DNA from: an uncultured Erysipelotrichaceae bacterium
GTDB lineage: Bacteria > Bacillota_I > Bacilli_A > Erysipelotrichales > Erysipelotrichaceae
DNA length: 43,810 nucleotides
Assembly (NCBI GenBank): GCA_902786245.1
Contig: CADABS010000013.1
Span: 1 to 43,810 of the forward strand
Direction: 5' to 3'
This document shows positions 8,645-43,677 of this stretch, piece after piece; positions within the stretch are counted from its first letter, which is position 1, and every line of letters starts with the position of its first letter. The notes under the pieces were generated by a model, which saw only the letters and a list, made by a program, of their open reading frames with translations, did not search any database and was not told the origin of the DNA. The position numbers and the translations under genes were made by a program.

Positions 8645-9295
8645 TCAGAAAGGATGCAGAAATCCGGCGATTGTTTCATACAGCTGATCGATCATGACCG
8701 GTTTTTCTTCAAATGCATTCATGCCTGCTGCGTATGTGGCATCCCGGTCTTCGGCAGAATTATTCGTAGTCATGGCGATGATCGGAATTGCGGCTTTTTC
8801 CGGATCCTGAAGCTGACGGATTTTCCGTGCTGCTTCAAGACCGTCCATGACCGGCATCGTGATGTCCATCAGAATCAGGTCATAGCGGCCGGGCGGAGCG
8901 TTTTTTATCTTTTCCAGACAGATCTGTCCGTTTTCGGCAAATTCTGTTACGGCACCGGTCTGCTTCAGTATTTCTGCGGCGATACGGCGGTTGATTTCCA
9001 TGTCATCCGCTACCAGGATCCGGCGGCCGGCGAAACTGTAATTTTCTGTCCGCATCTTTTCCTGTGCGTTCCTTGCAAGGACAGACTGCATATATTCCCG
9101 CAGCAGTCCGTCTCTGTCTGTTTTGAGTATGCCGGCGAGTTTCGGAAATAAAGCAATGTCCGGATATGAAAGACCGTTCTCCCACCCGGATACGTCTCTG
9201 TCTGAAACGCCAAGCAATTCAGCCAGCCGGGCCTGCGTCATATTGTTCTGCATCCGCAGGGCACGGATACAGGTGCCAAGTGTAGATTGTTTCAC
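8645..9295 (-). CDS. XRE helix-turn-helix protein with C-terminal response-regulator receiver domain
   Basis: A 216-residue protein with an XRE-type helix-turn-helix at residues 5-60 (NMTQARLAELLGVSDRDVSGWENG) and a receiver domain at about 92-213. The receiver has the acidic pair Asp97/Asp98 (VADDME), the phosphoacceptor Asp144 (LMDITMP), the Thr/Ser switch in AMTTN and the invariant Lys in FEEKP. The order, DNA-binding domain first, is the reverse of ordinary response regulators. I take GTG 9295 as start because GGAGGT (9303-9308) sits seven bases upstream; an ATG at 9310 would contain that site. No histidine kinase is adjacent. The gene is divergent from the c-di-GMP gene at 9517, so it could control that promoter. 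Confidence 0.82.
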   Translation of the reverse strand: MKQSTLGTCIRALRMQNNMTQARLAELLGVSDRDVSGWENGLSYPDIALFPKLAGILKTDRDGLLREYMQSVLARNAQEKMRTENYSFAGRRILVADDMEINRRIAAEILKQTGAVTEFAENGQICLEKIKNAPPGRYDLILMDITMPVMDGLEAARKIRQLQDPEKAAIPIIAMTTNNSAEDRDATYAAGMNAFEEKPVMIDQLYETIAGFLHPF

Positions 9296-9445
9296 TGCAT
9301 ATACCTCCATGTGCCAAAACTAACATGCCGAAAAACAGCAGACAACCGACTGTTGGTTTACATGGCATCGTATCTTCGGACGGACCGGATTTTCTTCCTG
9401 ATACAGTCATCTGGAAAATGCGCATACGCAGGGACGCCGATCCCT

Positions 9446-9516: not shown

Positions 9517-12500
9517 ATGCTTCAAAGTCATAAAAAATTTCATTCTTCCAACGGGAAAAGACAGATTCTGATTGCTGAAGATGAACTGATCAACCGGCAG
9601 ATTCTCAAGGTCATGCTTGAAAATGACTATGAGCTTGTATTTGCGGAAAACGGAATCCAGACACTGGAACAGATGCGGGAGAACCAGGGTACGCTTTCAC
9701 TGGTTCTGCTGGATATACTGATGCCGGAAATGTCCGGCATGGATGTGCTCAGAGCCGTCCGTTCAGATCCGTTTCTTTCCAATATTCCGATTATCGTAAC
9801 GACTGCCGAAACCGAAACCGAAGTAGAAAGTCTCAGGCTCGGCGCCATTGACTTTATTCCGAAACCGTATCCTGCATCGGATGTCATCCAGGCCAGAATT
9901 CTGCGTACGATCGAGCTTTCGGAAGACCGGGACATTATTCAGTCGACGGAACGGGATGCATTGACCGGACTCTATAACCGTGAGTATTTCTACCGCTATG
10001 CCGAGCAGTTTGATGCCTTTCATAAAGAACAGGCAATGGATGCGATCATCGTCGATGTCAATCATTTCCGGATGATCAATGAGCGCTATGGCAAAGCCTA
10101 CGGCGATGAGGTTCTCCGCCGGATCGGTGAGCAGGTGCGTCTGATGGTTGCGGATTCAGGCGGCATTGTCTGCCGCCGGACAGCGGATACATTCATGGTC
10201 TACTGTCCCCACCGCGAGGACTATCAGGAAATCATGGACAAAGCCTCTGTATATCTGCAGGATGATGAATCCGGCGAATACAGAGTCCGTCTGCGCATGG
10301 GCGTTTATTCAAATGCGGATAAGTCCATCGATATCGAAAGACGTTTTGACAGAGCGAAAATGGCAGCGGACACTGTCAAAGGCAGTTTTGCCAAAACAAT
10401 CGGCTTTTATGACAACAGCCTGCACGAAAAGCAGCTGTATGCAGAACAGCTGATTGAAGATTTCCCGGCAGCGATTGCCGAAAACCAGTTCAAGGTATTC
10501 TATCAGCCGAAATTCGATGTCAGACCGGATACACCGGTTCTCACGAGCGCAGAAGCGCTGGTGCGCTGGTTTCATCCGCGCCTGGGAATGATCAGCCCCG
10601 GGGTATTCATTCCTCTGTTTGAAGAAAACGGCCTGATCCGGCAGCTGGATATGTATGTCTGGAAAGAAACTGCCCGGCAGATCCGGGAATGGAAAGACCG
10701 GCTGGAATATTCGATTCCCGTATCCGTGAATGTTTCCCGGGTCGATATGTATGATCCCAATCTGAAGGATACGCTGCTGGATATTCTGAAGGAGAATGAT
10801 CTCAGCGGCAGAGACCTTCTGCTGGAAGTGACGGAATCCGCATATACACAGGATTCCAATCAGATCATCGAAACAGTCGAAAATCTGCGCAGCCTCGGCT
10901 TCCAGATCGAAATGGATGATTTCGGCACCGGCTATTCATCGCTGAATATGATTGCGAATCTGCCGATCGATGCACTGAAACTGGATATGCAGTTTATCCG
11001 CAGTGCCTTTGCGGAGGGCGGCAATACACATATGCTGGAAGTCATCATCGGTATTGCGGACTATCTGTCCGTGCCGGTCATTGCCGAGGGTGTGGAAACA
11101 GAAGCGCAGCTCCATGCGCTGAAACTGCTGGGATGCGATATCGTACAGGGCTATTTCTTTTCAAGGCCGGTCAATTCCGATGAATTCGAGCCGTTTATCC
11201 TGCAGAAAAAACAGGCGGATATCGCTGAAGCGAAAAGAACAGAAGCGGAATTCAACAATCCGGAAGAAGATATGGCCCGCCAGGCAAAACTGAATGCCCT
11301 GAAAGAAAAAACAGAGCCGGAACAGACAGAGCAGAACACCCTGCAGGTGCCGGAGGAACCGGCGGGCAGGGGAATCTATCTGCGCCGGGTGACATATTTC
11401 TTTGCCGTGCTTGCTCTGATTGCGTCAGCTCTTCTGATGTATCTGGATATTGCGGTAACTTCCGGGTATCAGAGGATGGAAAAAGCCAGCAGCAGCTATA
11501 TTGCCGCACAGAATGCCGCAGCCGATATGCAGACAGGTTCCGATTATCTGACAGACCGGGTGCGCTGCTTCGTCGTGACCGGGGATATCCGCTATCTCAC
11601 GGATTTCGTGACGGAAGTCGAAACGACCAGGCGCCGCGACAATGCGGTCGAGCGTCTGGCAGATCTGCTTGGAGACAGAAACAGCTATGTGCTGGACAGT
11701 CTGAATACCGCGCTCGATCTGTCCAATGAACTTGTGAAAACGGAAAACCTCTCCATGCGTCTGATGCTGGAAACAGACGATTATGACTTAAGCAATGTGC
11801 CGGCGGATATCAGAAACATACCGCTGGGTGAGAAATATCAGAACATGTCTGCGGAAGAACTGAAACAGACAGCGCAGGATATGGTTTTCAATGACCAGTA
11901 TATGTCCTACAAAGACCGCATCAGTGACAATGTCAGTCTATGCACAAAGGAACTGATCCGGATTTCTTCCCAGGAACTTGAACAGGCTTCGGAGCGGCTT
12001 GCCGCAATGGTGCGCGCGCAGACCGCGGTCACTGTCATATTCCTGCTGATCATTCTGACGGTTGTACTGATCATATCGAGAATGATCCGCATTCCTCTGT
12101 CCCGGATGGTCAGACATATGGAAAATCAGGAAATGATCCCGCCGACCGGTGTCGAGGAACTCCGTTTCGTCACCCGGACGTACAACAATATCCTGCGGGA
12201 GAATTATGAAGCGCGTGAAAAACTGAGCCATGAGGCATCCCATGACGCTCTGACCGGCCTGTTCAACCGGGGTGCCTATGATCTTCTGATGGAAAGCGCA
12301 GATGCCGATCATATGGCGCTGATCCTGATCGATGTGGACTATTTCAAGGAAGTCAATGATACATACGGACATGCGGTCGGAGACAGGATCCTGAAGAAAG
12401 TAGCAGATATCCTGAAGCACAGTTTCCGTTCCGTAGATATTCTCTGCCGTATCGGCGGCGATGAATTTGCGGTCGTGATGACCCGTGTCACAAGTGCGAT

Positions 12501-12702
12501 GAGTCAGATCGTCCTGTCCAAAATGAACCGGATGAATGATCTTCTTCAGCATCCCACCGATGACCTGCCGGCGGTATCCATCAGTGCCGGTGTAGCTTTC
12601 TCCGACCGGAAGAATCCCCGCGGAGATATTTATCAGGATGCCGACAGAGCGCTGTACAAAGTCAAGGAAGCAGGCCGCAAGGGCTGTTCCATCTATGAAT
12701 AA
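9517..12702 (+). CDS. Multidomain c-di-GMP turnover protein: REC, degenerate GGDEF, EAL, TM-sensor-TM, GGDEF
   Basis: A 1061-residue protein. The receiver domain (about 16-135) has acidic Glu21/Asp22, phosphoacceptor Asp66 (LLDILMP) and Lys116 (IPKPY). A GGDEF-like domain follows (146-300) in which the active motif has become RTADTF (221-226), so it is probably inactive. The EAL domain (about 310-560) keeps EAL (346-348), the Asn in SVNVS, Glu437, the Asp pair in MDDFG, Lys488, AEGVE and VQGYFF, so a c-di-GMP phosphodiesterase is expected. A charged linker leads to membrane segments at 626-645 and 835-856, flanking about 190 mostly helical extracytoplasmic residues. A C-terminal GGDEF domain with intact RIGGDEF (978-984) should be a diguanylate cyclase. 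Opposing activities and a cytoplasmic receiver in one chain imply switching. Confidence 0.88.
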   Translation: MLQSHKKFHSSNGKRQILIAEDELINRQILKVMLENDYELVFAENGIQTLEQMRENQGTLSLVLLDILMPEMSGMDVLRAVRSDPFLSNIPIIVTTAETETEVESLRLGAIDFIPKPYPASDVIQARILRTIELSEDRDIIQSTERDALTGLYNREYFYRYAEQFDAFHKEQAMDAIIVDVNHFRMINERYGKAYGDEVLRRIGEQVRLMVADSGGIVCRRTADTFMVYCPHREDYQEIMDKASVYLQDDESGEYRVRLRMGVYSNADKSIDIERRFDRAKMAADTVKGSFAKTIGFYDNSLHEKQLYAEQLIEDFPAAIAENQFKVFYQPKFDVRPDTPVLTSAEALVRWFHPRLGMISPGVFIPLFEENGLIRQLDMYVWKETARQIREWKDRLEYSIPVSVNVSRVDMYDPNLKDTLLDILKENDLSGRDLLLEVTESAYTQDSNQIIETVENLRSLGFQIEMDDFGTGYSSLNMIANLPIDALKLDMQFIRSAFAEGGNTHMLEVIIGIADYLSVPVIAEGVETEAQLHALKLLGCDIVQGYFFSRPVNSDEFEPFILQKKQADIAEAKRTEAEFNNPEEDMARQAKLNALKEKTEPEQTEQNTLQVPEEPAGRGIYLRRVTYFFAVLALIASALLMYLDIAVTSGYQRMEKASSSYIAAQNAAADMQTGSDYLTDRVRCFVVTGDIRYLTDFVTEVETTRRRDNAVERLADLLGDRNSYVLDSLNTALDLSNELVKTENLSMRLMLETDDYDLSNVPADIRNIPLGEKYQNMSAEELKQTAQDMVFNDQYMSYKDRISDNVSLCTKELIRISSQELEQASERLAAMVRAQTAVTVIFLLIILTVVLIISRMIRIPLSRMVRHMENQEMIPPTGVEELRFVTRTYNNILRENYEAREKLSHEASHDALTGLFNRGAYDLLMESADADHMALILIDVDYFKEVNDTYGHAVGDRILKKVADILKHSFRSVDILCRIGGDEFAVVMTRVTSAMSQIVLSKMNRMNDLLQHPTDDLPAVSISAGVAFSDRKNPRGDIYQDADRALYKVKEAGRKGCSIYE

Positions 12703-30750: not shown

Positions 30751-32091
30751 ATGAAAAAATGGCTGATCGCCGCAATGGCAGTCTGTCTGGCAGCGGGCTG
30801 CACAGCGCACAAAACTGAAGAAACCGAACCGGAAGAACCCGTACCGGCAGAAAAACCGCTTGTGGTATGGGCCAGGGAACCGGGACTGACGATCGACAAT
30901 ATCAAGCTCATGGAGCCTTTTTCAAAGCGGGAAATCATCTATGAAAGTCCTGCCAACGGCACCCAGCATGTCCTTGCGGACATGGAACGGTGCGGCTATC
31001 CGCAGGAATGGAATGAATCGGGCTACGGCACCGATGCCATCATCGTCGAGAAGGACGGCAATCACGGTCTGTTTGATTACAACGGCAATGTCATCTATCC
31101 GACCACCGTCAGTGTTCATCAGGCACCGTTTGCCTCAGGCATCGATGCGGCCAGAATCGTAAACGAAGACGGAAGCGTGCGCTTCGGCTGGGGTACGGTC
31201 AATACCGCATCCGCAACAGCGGTCCTCTTCGATCCGAATCTGACGACGGTATCCGATGTGCCGTTTGCGTCCTATCAGTATGATCCATACGATGAAATCA
31301 ATAAATGGCCGTATTTTGCGGTGCAGGACGGTGTATTCGGGGTCGTGACACCGCAGCTGACACCGGAAGGCAAAATGACATACAAATATGCATTTGAAGC
31401 TTACCAGGGCAGTACGCTTCCCGGCAGTCTGATCGTTCCGGAAGTCGATCAGAATTTCAACCGGACCGGATATATTGTCTGCGATGCCAACGGCAGCCAG
31501 ATCATGCATACGATCGTGGCCCGGGGCACCTATAAAGAAGATACATATGTCAACGGCTATTATCTGATCGGCATGGACAATGAGGTGACGATCATTCATG
31601 CGATGAGCGGCATGCAGGTCGGCGCTTCCTATTTCGGCGCCAAGTATTTTTCCGACGGATACATTCCGGTCAGGAAATACGGCAAATGGGGATACATGGA
31701 TGAAGAAGGAAATGAGGTCACGGATTTCATTTTCGATGATGCTTCGCCGGTCGTTCACGGCAATGCCTATGTACGCCGCGACGGCAGCTGGGGCATTCTG
31801 AACATGCGGGAATATCTCAATGCCGGAAAGCAGATCACATTTGCGGCATGCTACGGGGAAAAGACACAGGATCCCTCAATCGGAACGATCACCGTCAACG
31901 TCAGCGAGCTCAATATCAGAGATGCGGCCAGTGTCTACGGAGCTTCTGTGGGCAATTCGATCGTCGGCTCCCGCTATGATGTCTATGAAATCACGGAAGC
32001 GGAAGGCTATACCTGGTACCGGATCGATGCGTCGCACTGGATCCCGGACAGCGGAGAATGGCTGACATTTGAAGAAACAAAACAGGAATAA
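30751..32091 (+). CDS. WG-repeat lipoprotein with C-terminal SH3-like domain
   Basis: A 446-residue exported lipoprotein. The signal is MKKWLIAAMAVCLAAGC with lipobox LAAGC (Cys17), followed by an acidic Pro/Glu linker. The body has WG-repeat-like units (DGNHGLFDYNGNVIYP; KYGKWGYMDEEGNEVTDFIFDDA; DGSWGILN), a surface beta module. The last 75 residues (from about 370) form a bacterial SH3 domain (VNVSELNIRDAASVYGASVG), which binds cell-wall or partner peptides. It precedes adaptor 1 of the exporter by seven bases, so it is likely part of the operon and could recognise a cell-wall or envelope signal. That role is inferred. Confidence 0.85.
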   Translation: MKKWLIAAMAVCLAAGCTAHKTEETEPEEPVPAEKPLVVWAREPGLTIDNIKLMEPFSKREIIYESPANGTQHVLADMERCGYPQEWNESGYGTDAIIVEKDGNHGLFDYNGNVIYPTTVSVHQAPFASGIDAARIVNEDGSVRFGWGTVNTASATAVLFDPNLTTVSDVPFASYQYDPYDEINKWPYFAVQDGVFGVVTPQLTPEGKMTYKYAFEAYQGSTLPGSLIVPEVDQNFNRTGYIVCDANGSQIMHTIVARGTYKEDTYVNGYYLIGMDNEVTIIHAMSGMQVGASYFGAKYFSDGYIPVRKYGKWGYMDEEGNEVTDFIFDDASPVVHGNAYVRRDGSWGILNMREYLNAGKQITFAACYGEKTQDPSIGTITVNVSELNIRDAASVYGASVGNSIVGSRYDVYEITEAEGYTWYRIDASHWIPDSGEWLTFEETKQE

Positions 32092-32098
32092 TACTAAG

Positions 32099-33181
32099 AT
32101 GAAGAAGAAAACCAAGATTATGATCGCTGCTGCCGCAGGGGCGGCAGTTCTTCTTGGCGGACTCTGGTTCTTTCTGAACCGGGCGTCTGCCGGGGAAAAT
32201 GCAGTATATGTACAGAAGATATCCCAGCTGACAGCCTCACCGGCGGCTCTCAGCCGTTTTTCCGGTGTCGTCGAAGCCCAGAAATCGCTCGATATCAAAA
32301 AGGACGGAGCCCGCGAAGTATCGGAAATCTACGTCAGCGAGGGACAGACCGTAGCTGAGAATACACCGCTGTTCCGCTATGATGTCCGGGATGCGGAGAA
32401 TCAGATCGCAACGGCATCTCTGGATATCGAAGGACTCAATAACCAGATCGCTGTCTATTACGGCGACAATTCCACGGAAGCACAGCTGGCAGTCGCAGGG
32501 CTGCAGCTGGAAATCAGACAGAAGGAAGCAGATATCGCCAGATACCAGCAGGAAATCAATCAGGCGGAAGTGCGCTCTTCGATTGCCGGTGTCGTCAAGG
32601 CGGTCAATGCGAACGGCGGCTATGACCAGAGCGGAGCGGAACTGCCCCTGATTTCGATCACCGAAACCGGTGAGTTCCGGGTCAGAGGCAAGGTATCCGA
32701 GCAGCTGATCGGTACGGTATCTGCCGGCATGAGCGTTATCGTACGCTCCCGGGTCGATGAGAAAAAGACATGGCCGGGACAGATCTCCGTCGTTGAAACA
32801 GAGCCTGCCCAGAACAATCAGAACGGCTATTACTATGGCGGCGGCGAACAGAGCACTTCCTATCCGTTCTATGTATCCATGGAAAATACAGAAGGACTGA
32901 TGCTCGGCCAGCATGTTCTGATCGAACCTGACTACGGCCAGGGAACGGCAAAAGAAGGTATCTGGCTGTACAGCGATTTCATCGCTTTTGATGATAACGG
33001 CGATCCTTTTGTCTGGGCATCGAAGAACGGAAAACTGGAGAAGAGAAAGATCGAAACCGGTGCGGTGGATCCGGATACCGGAGAAATCGAAATTACTGCC
33101 GGTCTTAGTACGGATGACAGTATTGCCTGGCCGGATGAGACACTCACCGAGGGTATGCGGGTCACGGAGGCTCTGCAATGA
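32099..33181 (+). CDS. ABC exporter adaptor protein 1 (HlyD/MacA-like)
   Basis: A 360-residue membrane-fusion-type adaptor with one N-terminal transmembrane helix (about 8-24). The lipoyl-like half motifs (DIKKDGAREVSEIYVSEGQTV and VRSSIAGVVKAVNANGG) flank a short coiled coil (about 105-155), and beta-barrel and membrane-proximal domains follow. In MacA-type systems the adaptor forms a channel above the MacB permease. An in-frame ATG at 32069 lies within the previous gene; ATG 32099 matches the basic-then-hydrophobic start. It overlaps the ATPase gene by four bases. The gene is part of the dual-adaptor operon. Confidence 0.86.
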   Translation: MKKKTKIMIAAAAGAAVLLGGLWFFLNRASAGENAVYVQKISQLTASPAALSRFSGVVEAQKSLDIKKDGAREVSEIYVSEGQTVAENTPLFRYDVRDAENQIATASLDIEGLNNQIAVYYGDNSTEAQLAVAGLQLEIRQKEADIARYQQEINQAEVRSSIAGVVKAVNANGGYDQSGAELPLISITETGEFRVRGKVSEQLIGTVSAGMSVIVRSRVDEKKTWPGQISVVETEPAQNNQNGYYYGGGEQSTSYPFYVSMENTEGLMLGQHVLIEPDYGQGTAKEGIWLYSDFIAFDDNGDPFVWASKNGKLEKRKIETGAVDPDTGEIEITAGLSTDDSIAWPDETLTEGMRVTEALQ

Positions 33182-33867
33182 TTCTCGATCTGCAGAATAT
33201 CAACAAGAATTACGGCACCGGACAGGTCGTGGTGTCTGCTTTGAAAGACGTCACCCTGCAGGCGGAAGAAGGGGAATATATCGCCATTATGGGACCGAGC
33301 GGTTCCGGCAAGACGACCCTGATGAATATCATCGGCTGTCTGGACAGAGCCGACAGCGGTACGTATATGCTTGACGGTGCGGATATCTCGGGACTGAACG
33401 AAAACGAGCTTTCCGATGTGCGCCTGCACAAGATCGGATTTGTTTTTCAGACTTTCCAGCTGCTGCCCGGGGAAACCGCCCTGGAAAATGTAGCCCTGCC
33501 TCTGGTCTATGCCGGCGTACCGAGAGCGGAACGTCTGGAAAGAGCCAGAGAGTCGCTGGCGCAGGTCGGACTGGAAGAAAGAACCTCTTTTCTGCCGGCT
33601 CAGCTTTCCGGCGGACAGAAACAGCGGGTTGCCATTGCCAGAGCGATGATCAACCATCCCAGGATCCTGCTGGCAGATGAGCCGACCGGTGCTCTGGATC
33701 AGGCCAGCGGCGCCCAGGTCATGGAACTGTTTCAGCAGCTGAATGACAGCGGTGTAACGGTCATTATGATCACCCATGATGCCGGTGTTGCCTCGCATGC
33801 AAAAAGAATACTGAAGATCATCGACGGATGTCTGATCGATCCTGCAAAGGAAGGTGATCAGGCATGA
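33178..33867 (+). CDS. ABC exporter ATP-binding protein (MacB/LolD type)
   Basis: A 229-residue ATPase of the MacB/LolD class. The Walker A motif is GPSGSGKTT (39-47), the Q-loop lies in FVFQTFQLLPG, the signature is LSGGQKQR, Walker B is LLADEPTGALD and the switch histidine is in MITHD. A full-length MacB fuses this domain to the permease; here the permease is a separate gene at 35510. It overlaps adaptor 1 and adaptor 2 by four bases each, so the complex is translated in coupled order. Confidence 0.94.
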   Translation: MILDLQNINKNYGTGQVVVSALKDVTLQAEEGEYIAIMGPSGSGKTTLMNIIGCLDRADSGTYMLDGADISGLNENELSDVRLHKIGFVFQTFQLLPGETALENVALPLVYAGVPRAERLERARESLAQVGLEERTSFLPAQLSGGQKQRVAIARAMINHPRILLADEPTGALDQASGAQVMELFQQLNDSGVTVIMITHDAGVASHAKRILKIIDGCLIDPAKEGDQA

Positions 33868-35510
33868 AAAAGCATATGAAGAAAATCATTGCGGCATTGA
33901 TTGCGCTGGCAGTCGGCACCGGCGGATTTTTCGGTATCCGTGCATACCGCCGGGCAACCGCAAAACCGAAAATGGTACAGGTCGGCATGATCAATGCCGG
34001 ATATTACGAAGATGCGCTTTCTGCCTATGGCTTTGTCTATGATTCCGACAGTCAGTCGGTCTATCCGGAAAGCACCCAGATCATTGCGGCGGTTTATGTA
34101 ACTCCCGGTCAGGAAGTACATGCCGGCGATGCCCTGATGGAATACGATCTTTCCTCGCAGCAGCTGACGCTGTCGATGAAGGAACTCTCCGTGCAGAAAC
34201 TGCAGAACCAGCTCAATAATGCCTATGCCGAACTGAATGCACTGCGGAATGCGAAGCCGTTTGTACCGCAGCCGGAGCCGGAACCGGAACCCGAGCCTGA
34301 ACCGGAACCGGAGCCGGAGCATCCGAAAGCGGAAAAGGAAAAGACCGAAGATGCCTGGAACTATCTCGATGATACAAGCATCGATGATTTCTGGCTGAAA
34401 GATGAAGATCCGGAGACAGCGGGAAATATGGAAAATCCGTACCGCTATCTGGTGATAAGACAGGGCAGGATCTACGGATCGTTCCTGCGGGCAGTCAAAG
34501 AAAAGTATCCGGATAAGATCATCCGGGTGGATATCACAGCAGATGACAAGAAAGACGGAAAGCCGGTCTGTGCCTGGCTCTTCAACACTTCCCAGGTGGA
34601 AATCGTGTTTGAGGACAGCGATTCATGGTATGTATTGAATCATGATCCCGGTGACGGCACCGGTTCGGCGATTTCCGGCGATATCAGCTACTGGTCGGAT
34701 CCGGCCGTTCCGGAGTTTATTCCGGCACCGCCCCCGACGGTCGTTCCGGGGGAAGCGGGTAACTATGACGGTATCTATACGGAACAGGAACTGGCACGGA
34801 TGATCATGGATGCGGAACGCAATGTCCGCGATCTGGACCTGGCCGTGCGCAGAGCCCAGCTGGAACTGCAGATCATGCAGGAAGACATGCAGGACGGTGT
34901 TGTCTATGCAAAGAAAGACGGTGTTGTGACAATCGTCAATGATCCTGCAGCGCCGCCCCAGGACGGTACGCCGTTTCTGCAGGTATCTGCCGGCAGCGGT
35001 GTCTATGTCAAAGGATCGGTTTCCGAACTTCTTCTTGACCGGGTCGCACCGGGGATGACGGTTACGGCAATGAACTGGGAAGACGGTTCAATGTATGAAG
35101 GCACAATTGTCTCCGTAGACAATTATCCGGATGGCTCCGGGAACTATTCCGGCGGCAATCCCAATGCGTCCTATTACAGTTTTGATGCCTATATGGAAGA
35201 ATCGGGAACGCTGCGGCCGGGCATGTATCTGCAGCTGAATTTCTCAGCGGATCCGGAAGCCATGAATAACCGGATCTGTCTTGAAAACGCATTTATCCGC
35301 AATGATGAAAACGGAAGCTATGTCATGGCCGATGAAAACGGCATTCTGACAAAGCGGTATGTCCGCTGCGGCAAAACGTACTGGGGACAGATCACGGAAA
35401 TCAAGGAAGGTCTTTCGGCCGAAGATTATATTACCTTCCCGTACGGCGCCGGGGCTGAAGAAGGTGCGCATACGGAAATCACGGAAGGCGGAACGGAGGT
35501 GTTCTGGTAA
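33864..35510 (+). CDS. ABC exporter adaptor protein 2 with large inserted domain
   Basis: A 548-residue adaptor with an N-terminal transmembrane helix (6-25), first lipoyl half-motif (IIAAVYVTPGQEVHAGDALM) and coiled-coil helix (about 95-125). Instead of a direct turn, a run of Pro-Glu pairs (about 132-150) leads to an inserted globular region of roughly 140 residues (about 155-295). The returning helix (ELARMIMDAERNVRDLDLAVRRAQLEL) and second lipoyl half-motif (VYAKKDGVVTIVND) then follow, and the barrel domains complete it. The insertion sits at the hairpin tip, where adaptors meet an outer partner. With no outer membrane here, it may reach into the cell wall. It follows the ATPase and overlaps the permease by one base. 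Confidence 0.84.
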   Translation: MKKHMKKIIAALIALAVGTGGFFGIRAYRRATAKPKMVQVGMINAGYYEDALSAYGFVYDSDSQSVYPESTQIIAAVYVTPGQEVHAGDALMEYDLSSQQLTLSMKELSVQKLQNQLNNAYAELNALRNAKPFVPQPEPEPEPEPEPEPEPEHPKAEKEKTEDAWNYLDDTSIDDFWLKDEDPETAGNMENPYRYLVIRQGRIYGSFLRAVKEKYPDKIIRVDITADDKKDGKPVCAWLFNTSQVEIVFEDSDSWYVLNHDPGDGTGSAISGDISYWSDPAVPEFIPAPPPTVVPGEAGNYDGIYTEQELARMIMDAERNVRDLDLAVRRAQLELQIMQEDMQDGVVYAKKDGVVTIVNDPAAPPQDGTPFLQVSAGSGVYVKGSVSELLLDRVAPGMTVTAMNWEDGSMYEGTIVSVDNYPDGSGNYSGGNPNASYYSFDAYMEESGTLRPGMYLQLNFSADPEAMNNRICLENAFIRNDENGSYVMADENGILTKRYVRCGKTYWGQITEIKEGLSAEDYITFPYGAGAEEGAHTEITEGGTEVFW

Positions 35511-36757
35511 TGCTTGAAAATATCAGACTTTCCTTCCGCGGCATTCTGTCGCATAAGATGCGTTCGTTCCTGACGATGCTGGGTATTATCATCGGTATCG
35601 CCGCAATCATCGCAATCGTTTCGACGATCCATGGAACCAATGAACAGATCAAGAAGAATCTGATCGGCAGCGGTGTAAATACGGTAACAGTCCGTCTGAC
35701 ACAGGGAGACTGGGATTATGATTATTCCGGCGGTGTGCCGGACGGTATCCCGATGATCGATGAGACGGTCCGCAGTGAACTGAAGGGCATCAGCCATGCC
35801 GAAGGGGTATCGCTGTACAGTATGAGACAGGACTATGACGGCGTCTATCACCTCAATGATTCGATCAGCGGCGGCTATGTCATCGGCGTCGAACCGGATT
35901 ATTTCGCAACGGTCGGTCTGACCGTGAAAAGCGGCCGTGGCATATCGAAGACGGATCTGCGGAAAGCGGAAAAGATCTGCGTGCTGGATGAAAGCAGCAG
36001 CCGGACCCTGTTTCAGGGAGAGGATCCGGTCGGCAGAACGATCGAGATCAGAACCGAGCCGTTTACGGTCGCCGGTGTCGTGACGGATAAAGAAAAATTC
36101 GAGCCGACGATCACAACGATGTCTGAATACTATACCTATTCCCAGGATCAGGCCGGCCGGGTCTATATTCCGATCAGTACCTGGCCCTCGGTCTATCAGT
36201 ATGATGAACCGCAGAACGTCGTGATCCGGGCAGACCGGACGGAATCCATGACCGATATCGGCAAGAGCGCAGAGTCCATTCTCAATGCGAATCTGTCTTC
36301 GACGGAAATGTATTCCTATAAGGCACAGGATCTGCTGGAACAGGCAAAGGAGATCCAGCAGCTCTCGGAAAGCACGAATATGATGCTGCTGTGGATCGCC
36401 GGGATTTCCCTGCTGGTCGGCGGCATCGGCGTCATGAATATCATGCTTGTCAGCGTCACCGAAAGAACCAGCGAGATCGGTCTGAAGAAGGCCATCGGCG
36501 CACCGAAAAAAGCAATCATGATGCAGTTTCTGACGGAAGCGGTCGTACTGACTTCAACCGGCGGTCTGCTCGGGGTGATCACGGGTATCATCCTGGCGGG
36601 GCTGATCTCGCAGATCAACGGCACGCCGGTGGCGATCTCCGGCACAGCCGCGCTGTTTGCGGTCGCTTTCTCCATGTTCATCGGTATCCTGTTCGGTTAT
36701 CTGCCTTCCCGCAAGGCAGCCAATCTGGATCCGATCGAAGCACTCAGACATGAATAA
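35510..36757 (+). CDS. ABC exporter permease (MacB/FtsX-like)
   Basis: A 415-residue permease of the MacB/FtsX family. A first transmembrane helix (LTMLGIIIGIAAIIAIVS) is followed by a large extracytoplasmic domain (about 50-280) of the MacB_PCD type. The C-terminal FtsX domain (about 285-410) holds three helices with GGIGVMNIMLVSVTERTSEIG and KKAIGA, and it ends in YLPSRKAANLDPIEALRHE, the characteristic MacB ending. MacB exporters move toxins, peptides or antibiotics. The substrate is unknown. It is the last gene of the operon; a terminator overlaps its stop region. Confidence 0.93.
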   Translation: MLENIRLSFRGILSHKMRSFLTMLGIIIGIAAIIAIVSTIHGTNEQIKKNLIGSGVNTVTVRLTQGDWDYDYSGGVPDGIPMIDETVRSELKGISHAEGVSLYSMRQDYDGVYHLNDSISGGYVIGVEPDYFATVGLTVKSGRGISKTDLRKAEKICVLDESSSRTLFQGEDPVGRTIEIRTEPFTVAGVVTDKEKFEPTITTMSEYYTYSQDQAGRVYIPISTWPSVYQYDEPQNVVIRADRTESMTDIGKSAESILNANLSSTEMYSYKAQDLLEQAKEIQQLSESTNMMLLWIAGISLLVGGIGVMNIMLVSVTERTSEIGLKKAIGAPKKAIMMQFLTEAVVLTSTGGLLGVITGIILAGLISQINGTPVAISGTAALFAVAFSMFIGILFGYLPSRKAANLDPIEALRHE

Positions 36758-42521: not shown

Positions 42522-42592
42522 GCCGCTTTAGTATAGTGGTAATACGCAGCAATGGTAATGCTGAACGGGCAGTTCAATTCTGCCAAGCGGCA
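42522..42592 (+). tRNA. tRNA-Thr (anticodon GGT)
   Basis: A 71-base cloverleaf. The acceptor arm GCCGCTT/AAGCGGC is perfect. The D arm is GTAT/ATAC with a seven-base loop (AGTGGTA). The anticodon arm CAGCA/TGCTG encloses ATGGTAA with anticodon GGT at 42554-42556. A four-base variable loop and T arm GGCAG/CTGCC with loop TTCAATT follow. The discriminator is A92. No CCA is encoded. The short D arm resembles Gly-type tRNAs, but the anticodon is clear. The 3' end is the likely integration site of the element at its right. Confidence 0.85.
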
Positions 42593-42642: not shown

Positions 42643-43677
42643 CTATTTTTTCAAATTATTCAGAAAATCGACTGTTCTGGACTGCCCTTTATCGAAAATA
42701 TGCGAATAGTGTTCCATCGTGATTTTCGGGGAAGAATGACCGATTCTTTTGCTTATTTCGGGTACCGGAACGCCTGCATCCCACAGCATTGACACATGAC
42801 TGTGCCGTAAATCATGGATGCGCATGTCCGGCAGACCGGCGGCATTCAGGTTCCTCTTGAAGTGCCATGTAATGCTGTTGTTATCCAGAGGAGAATCATC
42901 ACCGAACAGCCATTCGCCTTCGCGCCGGCAAAGAGCAGCAACTTTTCTGTTTGTATCATCATCCAGCATGACCCAGCGTTCTGTTCTTGTTTTCGTTGTC
43001 CGCAGAGATGTTACATCCCTCCGCATGGATTTGAATATATGCACACGTTTTCCAACCGGATCGTAATCCGTCTTTCTGAGCGCTTTTGCTTCGCCTTTCC
43101 GGCATCCGGTCATGAACAGAAACTGAAAGAATGCTGCAAAGATAGGATTCTCTTCTTGCTCCAGGAACGAGGTGAACTGTCCGTAATTGAGCAATACCAT
43201 CTCATGGAAGTCGTCCAGTTCCAGCGGGAAAGTCTTCAGCACTTTGCATTGATCAGGTATGTCAAACGTTTCCCAGGCATATCTTCCGACCTGCTTCACA
43301 TAGCCGATAATATCGTTCTTTGTCCTGGTTGATATCGGCCAGTCATTTAAGGATTCGCGCCATTGGATCAGCTCCTGCTTTGTGATGGACCGCATGGAGC
43401 GGTTCATCAAAGACTTTGCGTATTTGTTCACCCGGGATCTGCGCTGCTGCGTAGTGGTCTCAGAAGCGCGGTTTGCCATCGCAAGAGATTCAAACATCGT
43501 TGCGAACGTGTCAGAGTCTGTCAGACTGGATTCATGCCGGTGGTTGATCTCATAGGATTGCGCCTGCTGCTTTGTGGCGAATCCGCGTTTCCTGGTCAAG
43601 TGCAGCTCTCCATCAGATCCGCGGACACGGAACTGACACTCCCACTTTCCGGTTTTCTTGTTTTTACTGACCGACAT
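42643..43677 (-). CDS. Tyrosine recombinase/integrase
   Basis: A 344-residue phage-type integrase. An N-terminal arm-binding region (1-50) with a three-strand pattern is followed by a SAM-like core-binding domain (about 55-155) and a catalytic domain. The catalytic set is Arg193 (TGCRKGEA), a Lys near 229, H288-x-x-R291 (IHDLRH), His314 (IGHSS) and Tyr324 (MEHYSHI). It reads towards the adjacent tRNA gene, the usual arrangement for an element inserted in a tRNA 3' end. AAAGGAG lies upstream of the ATG. It is likely the integrase of an element (prophage or ICE) that extends beyond the right edge of the window. Confidence 0.92.
   Translation of the reverse strand: MSVSKNKKTGKWECQFRVRGSDGELHLTRKRGFATKQQAQSYEINHRHESSLTDSDTFATMFESLAMANRASETTTQQRRSRVNKYAKSLMNRSMRSITKQELIQWRESLNDWPISTRTKNDIIGYVKQVGRYAWETFDIPDQCKVLKTFPLELDDFHEMVLLNYGQFTSFLEQEENPIFAAFFQFLFMTGCRKGEAKALRKTDYDPVGKRVHIFKSMRRDVTSLRTTKTRTERWVMLDDDTNRKVAALCRREGEWLFGDDSPLDNNSITWHFKRNLNAAGLPDMRIHDLRHSHVSMLWDAGVPVPEISKRIGHSSPKITMEHYSHIFDKGQSRTVDFLNNLKK

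Follow-up and report, generated by a model that had tools for sequence, protein, structure and literature searches.

A gene in the window, i.e. the whole 43,810-nt stretch of DNA analysed here, encodes a 1061-aa protein that is a real, conserved and probably functional fusion of a predicted phosphorelay-controlled phosphodiesterase and a predicted membrane sensor cyclase. We consider it rather likely that two proteins paired in relatives, a response-regulator phosphodiesterase and a membrane sensor cyclase, have been joined into a tethered push-pull enzyme. Such a gene bears on a question raised by bifunctional c-di-GMP proteins, namely why a maker and a destroyer should be joined.

Domain organization of the protein

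The gene is a single uninterrupted ORF (Table 1), and the starts of its orthologues align at its M1. Besides the receiver (REC) and EAL domains, the Pfam search of the protein detected two GGDEF stretches (1.2e-57; the best at residues 907–1055). The EAL domain contains EALVRW, DDFGTGYSSL, EGVE and QGYFF, its catalytic set comprises E346, N405, E437, E440, D467, D468, K488, E524, E527 and Q544, and among PDB sequences it matches a motility-regulator chain (4rnh) best. In the C-terminal GGDEF domain (GGDEF2), the metal Asp (D939), the guanine-pocket residues (N947 and D956) and the GGDEF signature are all present. Apart from the folded domains, hydropathy shows only two strong membrane segments (approximately residues 629–647 and 836–854, with 188 residues between them), and the Arg-rich cytoplasmic flanks of both fit an N-in/C-in topology.

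An earlier reading made from the letters of the DNA (the sequence-only reading) had described an intact EAL and an intact C-terminal GGDEF in one protein, two membrane segments enclosing about 190 extracytoplasmic residues, and a degenerate first GGDEF (GGDEF1) with the motif RTADTF, which lies at residues 221–226. All of these observations were confirmed. Two details can be added: GGDEF2 carries an intact RxxD I-site (R971–D974), and GGDEF1 still has Asp at the metal position (D180) and Asn and Asp at the guanine-pocket positions (N188 and D197). The dead GGDEF1 thus keeps GTP-binding residues as FimX does, and GTP binding is predicted for it. The set D22/D66/T96/K116 in REC is that of a response-regulator phospho-acceptor, a role predicted here for D66.

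Table 1. Features of the fused gene and its divergent neighbour in the window (GGDEFd, degenerate GGDEF domain)
Feature	Position	Strand	Basis and remarks
CDS, REC-GGDEFd-EAL-linker-TM1-sensor-TM2-HAMP-like-GGDEF	9517..12702	+	1061 aa, ATG to stop; ORF, Pfam, 21 other complete orthologues
REC receiver, aa 17–125; predicted phospho-acceptor D66, K116	9565..9891	+	Pfam PF00072, E 2.1e-19; D22/D66/T96/K116 invariant in 21
GGDEF1, degenerate, aa 138–302; TADTF aa 222–226	9928..10422	+	guanine-pocket residues kept; xADTF-type in nearly all orthologues
EAL, putative phosphodiesterase domain, aa 314–551	10456..11169	+	Pfam PF00563, E 1.4e-63; catalytic residues invariant
Flexible linker, aa 557–620	11185..11376	+	poorly conserved, 50–105 aa in orthologues; pLDDT <50 at 579–619
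TM1, aa 629–647	11401..11457	+	hydropathy; RR precedes, positive-inside
Extracytoplasmic four-helix sensor domain, aa 648–835	11458..12021	+	predicted model; no significant Pfam family
TM2, aa 836–854	12022..12078	+	hydropathy
HAMP-like segment and signalling helix, aa 858–904	12088..12228	+	sequence pattern; helix 880–906 in model
GGDEF2, putative diguanylate cyclase domain, aa 907–1055; GGDEF aa 980–984, I-site RSVD aa 971–974	12235..12681	+	invariant in 24/24
HTH-REC protein, 221 aa, divergent neighbour	8645..9310	-	not found adjacent to the gene in relatives

Distribution and conservation

One scan of genome contigs, together with relatives of the window genome, yielded 22 complete genes with this domain order, the window gene among them (55–71% identity to it for the 20 aligned). 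Because these are 22 complete orthologous ORFs with the same order and conserved domains, the arrangement is not a product of chance. Four additional fused genes are cut by contig ends and one is interrupted. The interrupted copy (L030, 5905–9131) is broken around TM2 into an ORF of 842 aa and, downstream of it, a GGDEF ORF of 221 aa, which may be a true split or an assembly error. The hosts are mostly ruminant-gut Clostridia MAGs; within the window's genus, the full form was found in only two of 70 genomes at the threshold used, and the distribution is therefore patchy.

Mean majority-residue frequencies are 0.75–0.86 for the four cytoplasmic domains, 0.73 for the extracytoplasmic domain and 0.45 for the linker. 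The ten EAL catalytic residues checked and the RxxD I-site of GGDEF2 are invariant across the orthologues examined, and all 24 membrane forms examined retain the GGDEF2 signature, metal Asp and guanine Asn/Asp. The signature of GGDEF1 is GGDEF in no orthologue; D180 and N188 are kept there, and the D197 position is occupied by N in two orthologues. These conserved motifs indicate that selection maintains EAL and GGDEF2, and that GGDEF1 has not acted as a cyclase for a long time and is probably a GTP-binding module.

Separate halves and origin of the fusion

Both halves also occur as independent genes. The cyclase half (TM-sensor-TM-GGDEF) stands alone as a protein of 446–490 aa at 13 loci, with an intact GGDEF in all 13, and REC-GGDEFd-EAL proteins of about 570 aa stand alone at many loci. 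The two halves are adjacent on the same strand, cyclase first and about 30–200 bases apart, at five loci (L051, L053, L054, L057 and L075) and adjacent but divergent at two (L120 and L121). The occurrence of the separate halves as neighbours in relatives, often beside pilus genes, suggests a deliberately paired on/off switch.

In the unrooted cyclase-half tree, the 26 fused rows fall on one side of a branch with a support of 100/99, which was present in 100% of bootstrap trees; a single fusion is therefore the simplest account, with no root inferred. In the phosphodiesterase-half tree, 24 of the 26 fused rows are grouped together with a contig-cut copy (L037; SH-aLRT 94), and L046 and L030 lie outside this main group. 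Simple stop-codon fusion of an operon was rejected, as the operons have the order cyclase-phosphodiesterase and the fusion the reverse; a rearrangement was therefore needed.

Several other architectures surround the same REC-GGDEFd-EAL core (PAS-GGDEF, soluble GGDEF and TM-sensor GGDEF), as would be expected if the core picked up many C-terminal modules by neutral domain shuffling and the fusion had no special function. This explanation is very improbable, given a single cyclase-half clade, spanning more than 20 species, in which neither active site varies, and given that the same two halves exist as independent side-by-side genes.

Relatives without the membrane part and other formats

Seven relatives have the form REC-GGDEFd-EAL-GGDEF without membrane segments, one of them in the window genome (contig C12; L009, 4070–6298). 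The signatures of their last domains are KEDEF, QKDEF, QEDEF, SNDEF, KEDEF, GEGMF and GDHTF; the C-terminal active site and the guanine Asn are lost in all seven and the I-site RxxD is kept in all seven, so that this domain looks like a c-di-GMP binder. In the GGDEF tree, the seven form one clade (100/99). Close to this clade lie the fused forms and L048, a protein with two adjacent TMs, no extracytoplasmic domain and an intact GGDEF. The fused, hairpin and soluble forms are grouped at 85/85 in the C-terminal-GGDEF tree, which is short and noisy, with two long-branch rows also inside the group; a clade of these three forms alone was not rejected (AU p 0.34). As the soluble forms are dead and the membrane forms intact, a live cyclase is found in this lineage together with membrane segments. 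The PAS-type forms are an exception to the contrast: their C-terminal GGDEF, which is soluble and belongs to another lineage, is intact.

Many GGDEF-EAL proteins are functionally one-sided, and the soluble relatives demonstrate that the last domain can persist with only its I-site. The window protein might likewise be a net one-way enzyme, acting mainly as a phosphodiesterase in the cell, with the C-terminal GGDEF serving chiefly as a product sensor through the I-site or as a regulatory dimer module. The retention of the GGDEF signature, metal Asp and guanine Asn/Asp in all 24 membrane forms and all 13 stand-alone forms argues against this alternative, which we regard as unlikely.

The sequence-only reading had also called the domain order unusual, with EAL on the N-terminal side of the membrane anchor and the active cyclase at the C-terminus. 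To place it, 296 genomes of the class were surveyed, and 38 EAL loci with frames of at least 850 aa were fetched, giving 57 EAL proteins; this is a small sample, and it favours long frames and high EAL scores. GGDEF follows EAL in 8 of these 57 proteins, as it does in several forms of the same family, so this part of the claim did not stand. A membrane segment after EAL, and hence a membrane sensor between EAL and GGDEF, was found in none of the 57, and all cases found belong to a single clade in the cyclase-half tree. Placing EAL before GGDEF is thus recurrent, and the distinguishing trait is the intervening membrane sensor, which appears restricted within this limited survey. Another membrane fusion was seen at three loci (L016, 9227–12028; L036, 3550–6384; L130, 2948–7312), where Pfam identifies AA_permease_2 domains joined to hybrid histidine kinases or to GGDEF-REC-GGDEFd-EAL; amino-acid-permease-like folds are apparently used as sensors there. 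A related protein of 740 aa with a GGDEF domain is encoded in the window genome (L009, 9733–11955).

Sensor, HAMP-like segment and linker

Searches of the sensor against Pfam and PDB sequences gave nothing significant. Among CHASE3 and 4HB_MCP, the best Pfam match was to CHASE3 (E 0.0032, below criterion) in 4 of 38 members, with none for the window protein. With a mean pLDDT of 90, the predicted model shows four helices in a long bundle between the two TMs. It matches the sensor of Rhodopseudomonas palustris HK9 (3va9) with Z 13.6 and an rmsd of 2.1 over 127 residues, chemoreceptor ligand-binding domains with Z of about 10–12.8, and NarQ (with TM and HAMP) with Z of about 10–11, although helical bundles score high generally. 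Because the Foldseek E-values exceed 0.001 and bundles score well by default, the match concerns the fold class and not the ligand: the modelled domain resembles ligand-binding four-helix sensors. Two cysteines in the sensor, C684 (11566–11568) and C809 (11941–11943), are present in 19 and all 21 of the 21 fused orthologues, respectively, and are a possible thiol or ligand site. Behind TM2, a HAMP-like pattern (PL..M and E..L....N with a short connector) is recognizable; the Pfam HAMP match is weak (E 0.059 in 2 of 38 members).

The full-length model (pTM 0.41) does not fix the relative placement of the domains. The linker between EAL and TM1 is long, variable and, with pLDDT below 50, disordered, so that tethering is favoured over rigid coupling. 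In Lpl0329-type proteins, which are soluble, a single GGDEF directly abuts EAL. Since bifunctional REC-controlled GGDEF-EAL proteins of this kind exist (Lpl0329, cited in PMC11841396), REC and the sensor might act on one rigid dimer whose activity flips between phosphodiesterase and cyclase, instead of the two being set independently. A disordered, unconserved linker of 50–105 residues, the direct abutment of the domains in the Lpl0329 type and the persistence of the halves as separate proteins in relatives make such an allosteric switch quite improbable.

Gene neighbourhoods

In nine relatives (L016, L017, L019, L020, L022, L026, L028, L029 and L036), the gene immediately upstream of the fused gene (overlapping to 72 bp away) is hybrid-kinase-like. 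An Hpt gene is present in the fused-gene cluster at six loci (L016, L019, L020, L026, L028 and L032) and adjoins all five tandem split pairs, following the pair in each. For those members that were scanned, Pfam verified HisKA/HATPase/REC or Hpt domains. Together with the invariance of the REC acceptor set, the nine upstream kinases support the earlier proposal that two inputs, phosphorylation and an outside signal, could act on opposing enzyme activities, both of which are live by motif.

The five tandem split pairs end operons with T2SSF, pilin-like, DUF4860 and T2SSE ATPase genes upstream. The clusters at L016, L019, L026 and L028 comprise pilin-like genes, T2SSE, a BTAD regulator, Hpt, a hybrid kinase and the fused gene, and L020 contains the 3' part of the corresponding pilus cluster, including the T2SSE gene. 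Two of the BTAD regulators (L016, 2055–3254; L075, 4640–5869) end in a region with weak similarity to GGDEF (Pfam E 0.004 and 0.0016, neither passing the cut-off), and it is possible that such proteins are c-di-GMP-responsive regulators.

In the window genome, no kinase or Hpt gene adjoins the fused gene, and we therefore infer its phosphodonor from relatives; the only Hpt found in this genome is on contig C7, beside a REC-GGDEFd-EAL paralogue. The pilus operon of this genome lies away from the window gene, on contig C10 (TGase, T2SSF, pilin-like, DUF4860, T2SSE and BTAD genes; L148, 6643–14298, reverse strand). This pilus/T2SS-like operon ends with a different small GGDEF gene (233 aa, two TMs). 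The divergent HTH-REC gene was considered as a cognate partner and dropped, as it does not accompany the gene in relatives; it is probably not part of the system.

PilZ, MshEN and the c-di-GMP-I riboswitch were searched for in the window genome and not found; the c-di-GMP-II riboswitch search had no match in this genome, and its control also matched nowhere. No riboswitch or other RNA was seen near the gene, the window showing only a tRNA (42522–42592, forward strand). This tRNA adjoins a phage-type integrase gene (42643–43677, reverse strand), and the right end of the window is likely an integration site of a mobile element. The window also encodes a MacB-type ABC exporter and two HlyD-like proteins (32069–36754).

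Proposed mechanism

In the reading that we favour, the tethered push-pull enzyme, a hybrid kinase, probably acting through an Hpt protein as in relatives, would phosphorylate D66 and change the REC dimer. The dead GGDEF1 would bind GTP and gate EAL, which would hydrolyse c-di-GMP. An independent outside signal would be transmitted by the four-helix sensor through TM2 and the signalling helix, bringing two GGDEF2 domains together to make c-di-GMP, which may feedback-inhibit GGDEF2 at the RxxD site. With both enzymes kept together in a single dimer and at a single membrane site, local c-di-GMP would reflect the balance of the outside signal (synthesis) and the phosphorelay signal (breakdown). 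The nearby output in relatives is a type-IV-pilus/T2SS-like machine, the presumed target.

A broader version, which is more tentative and perhaps somewhat doubtful, is that fused cooperating genes have formed a self-contained, membrane-tethered push-pull device at the pilus machine and that, once without its sensor, the maker degenerates into a c-di-GMP receptor, the paralogue on contig C12 supplying the receptor missing from this genome.

To our knowledge, c-di-GMP and pili have hardly been studied in these uncultured ruminant-gut Clostridia. The relatives provide a natural series, i.e. separate adjacent halves, fused forms, fused forms without the extracytoplasmic domain, and fused forms without the membrane part in which the cyclase is dead and the I-site kept, and this comparative series makes the idea of local push-pull control testable.

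Comparison with known systems

Precedent exists for each step of the mechanism; the combination itself, a REC-GGDEF-EAL-TM-GGDEF protein, was not found described among the open-access papers searched, subscription papers being outside this search. FimX has the layout REC-PAS-GGDEFd-EAL with a degenerate EAL (PMC10333796), its REC lacks the phospho-Asp, and GTP stimulates its EAL through the GTP-binding degenerate GGDEF; PdeR is a phosphorylation-activated REC/EAL protein in pilus control (PMC11656802). The window protein shares with FimX and PdeR the combination of REC, a degenerate GGDEF and EAL and an association with pilus machinery (PMC10333796, PMC11656802). Unlike in FimX, D66 and the EAL catalytic residues are intact, and both FimX and PdeR are without a second, live, membrane-anchored GGDEF.

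Lpl0329, a bifunctional response regulator as cited in PMC11841396, and Lpg0277 of Legionella likewise combine a response regulator with cyclase and phosphodiesterase domains, according to that citation; in the window protein, however, the GGDEF adjoining EAL is the dead one, and a membrane sensor precedes the live one. The REC-EAL phosphodiesterases RocR and PvrR, which operate with hybrid kinases, resemble it in having a phosphorelay-controlled EAL but possess neither GGDEF domains nor a membrane part. The C-terminal half has the TM-sensor-TM-HAMP-like-GGDEF layout with an I-site of membrane sensor cyclases (CHASE3/4HB_MCP-like, DgcN/YfiN-type layout), but here it is fused behind a complete response-regulator phosphodiesterase, and its sensor has no significant Pfam match. 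The REC-GGDEFd-EAL-(PAS)-GGDEF proteins of Clostridia (L033, L077 and L121; outside the genus, L154 and L157) share the same core and a C-terminal GGDEF; they differ in their soluble middle part and, in the family members checked, in a C-terminal GGDEF that lacks the I-site and is of a separate lineage.
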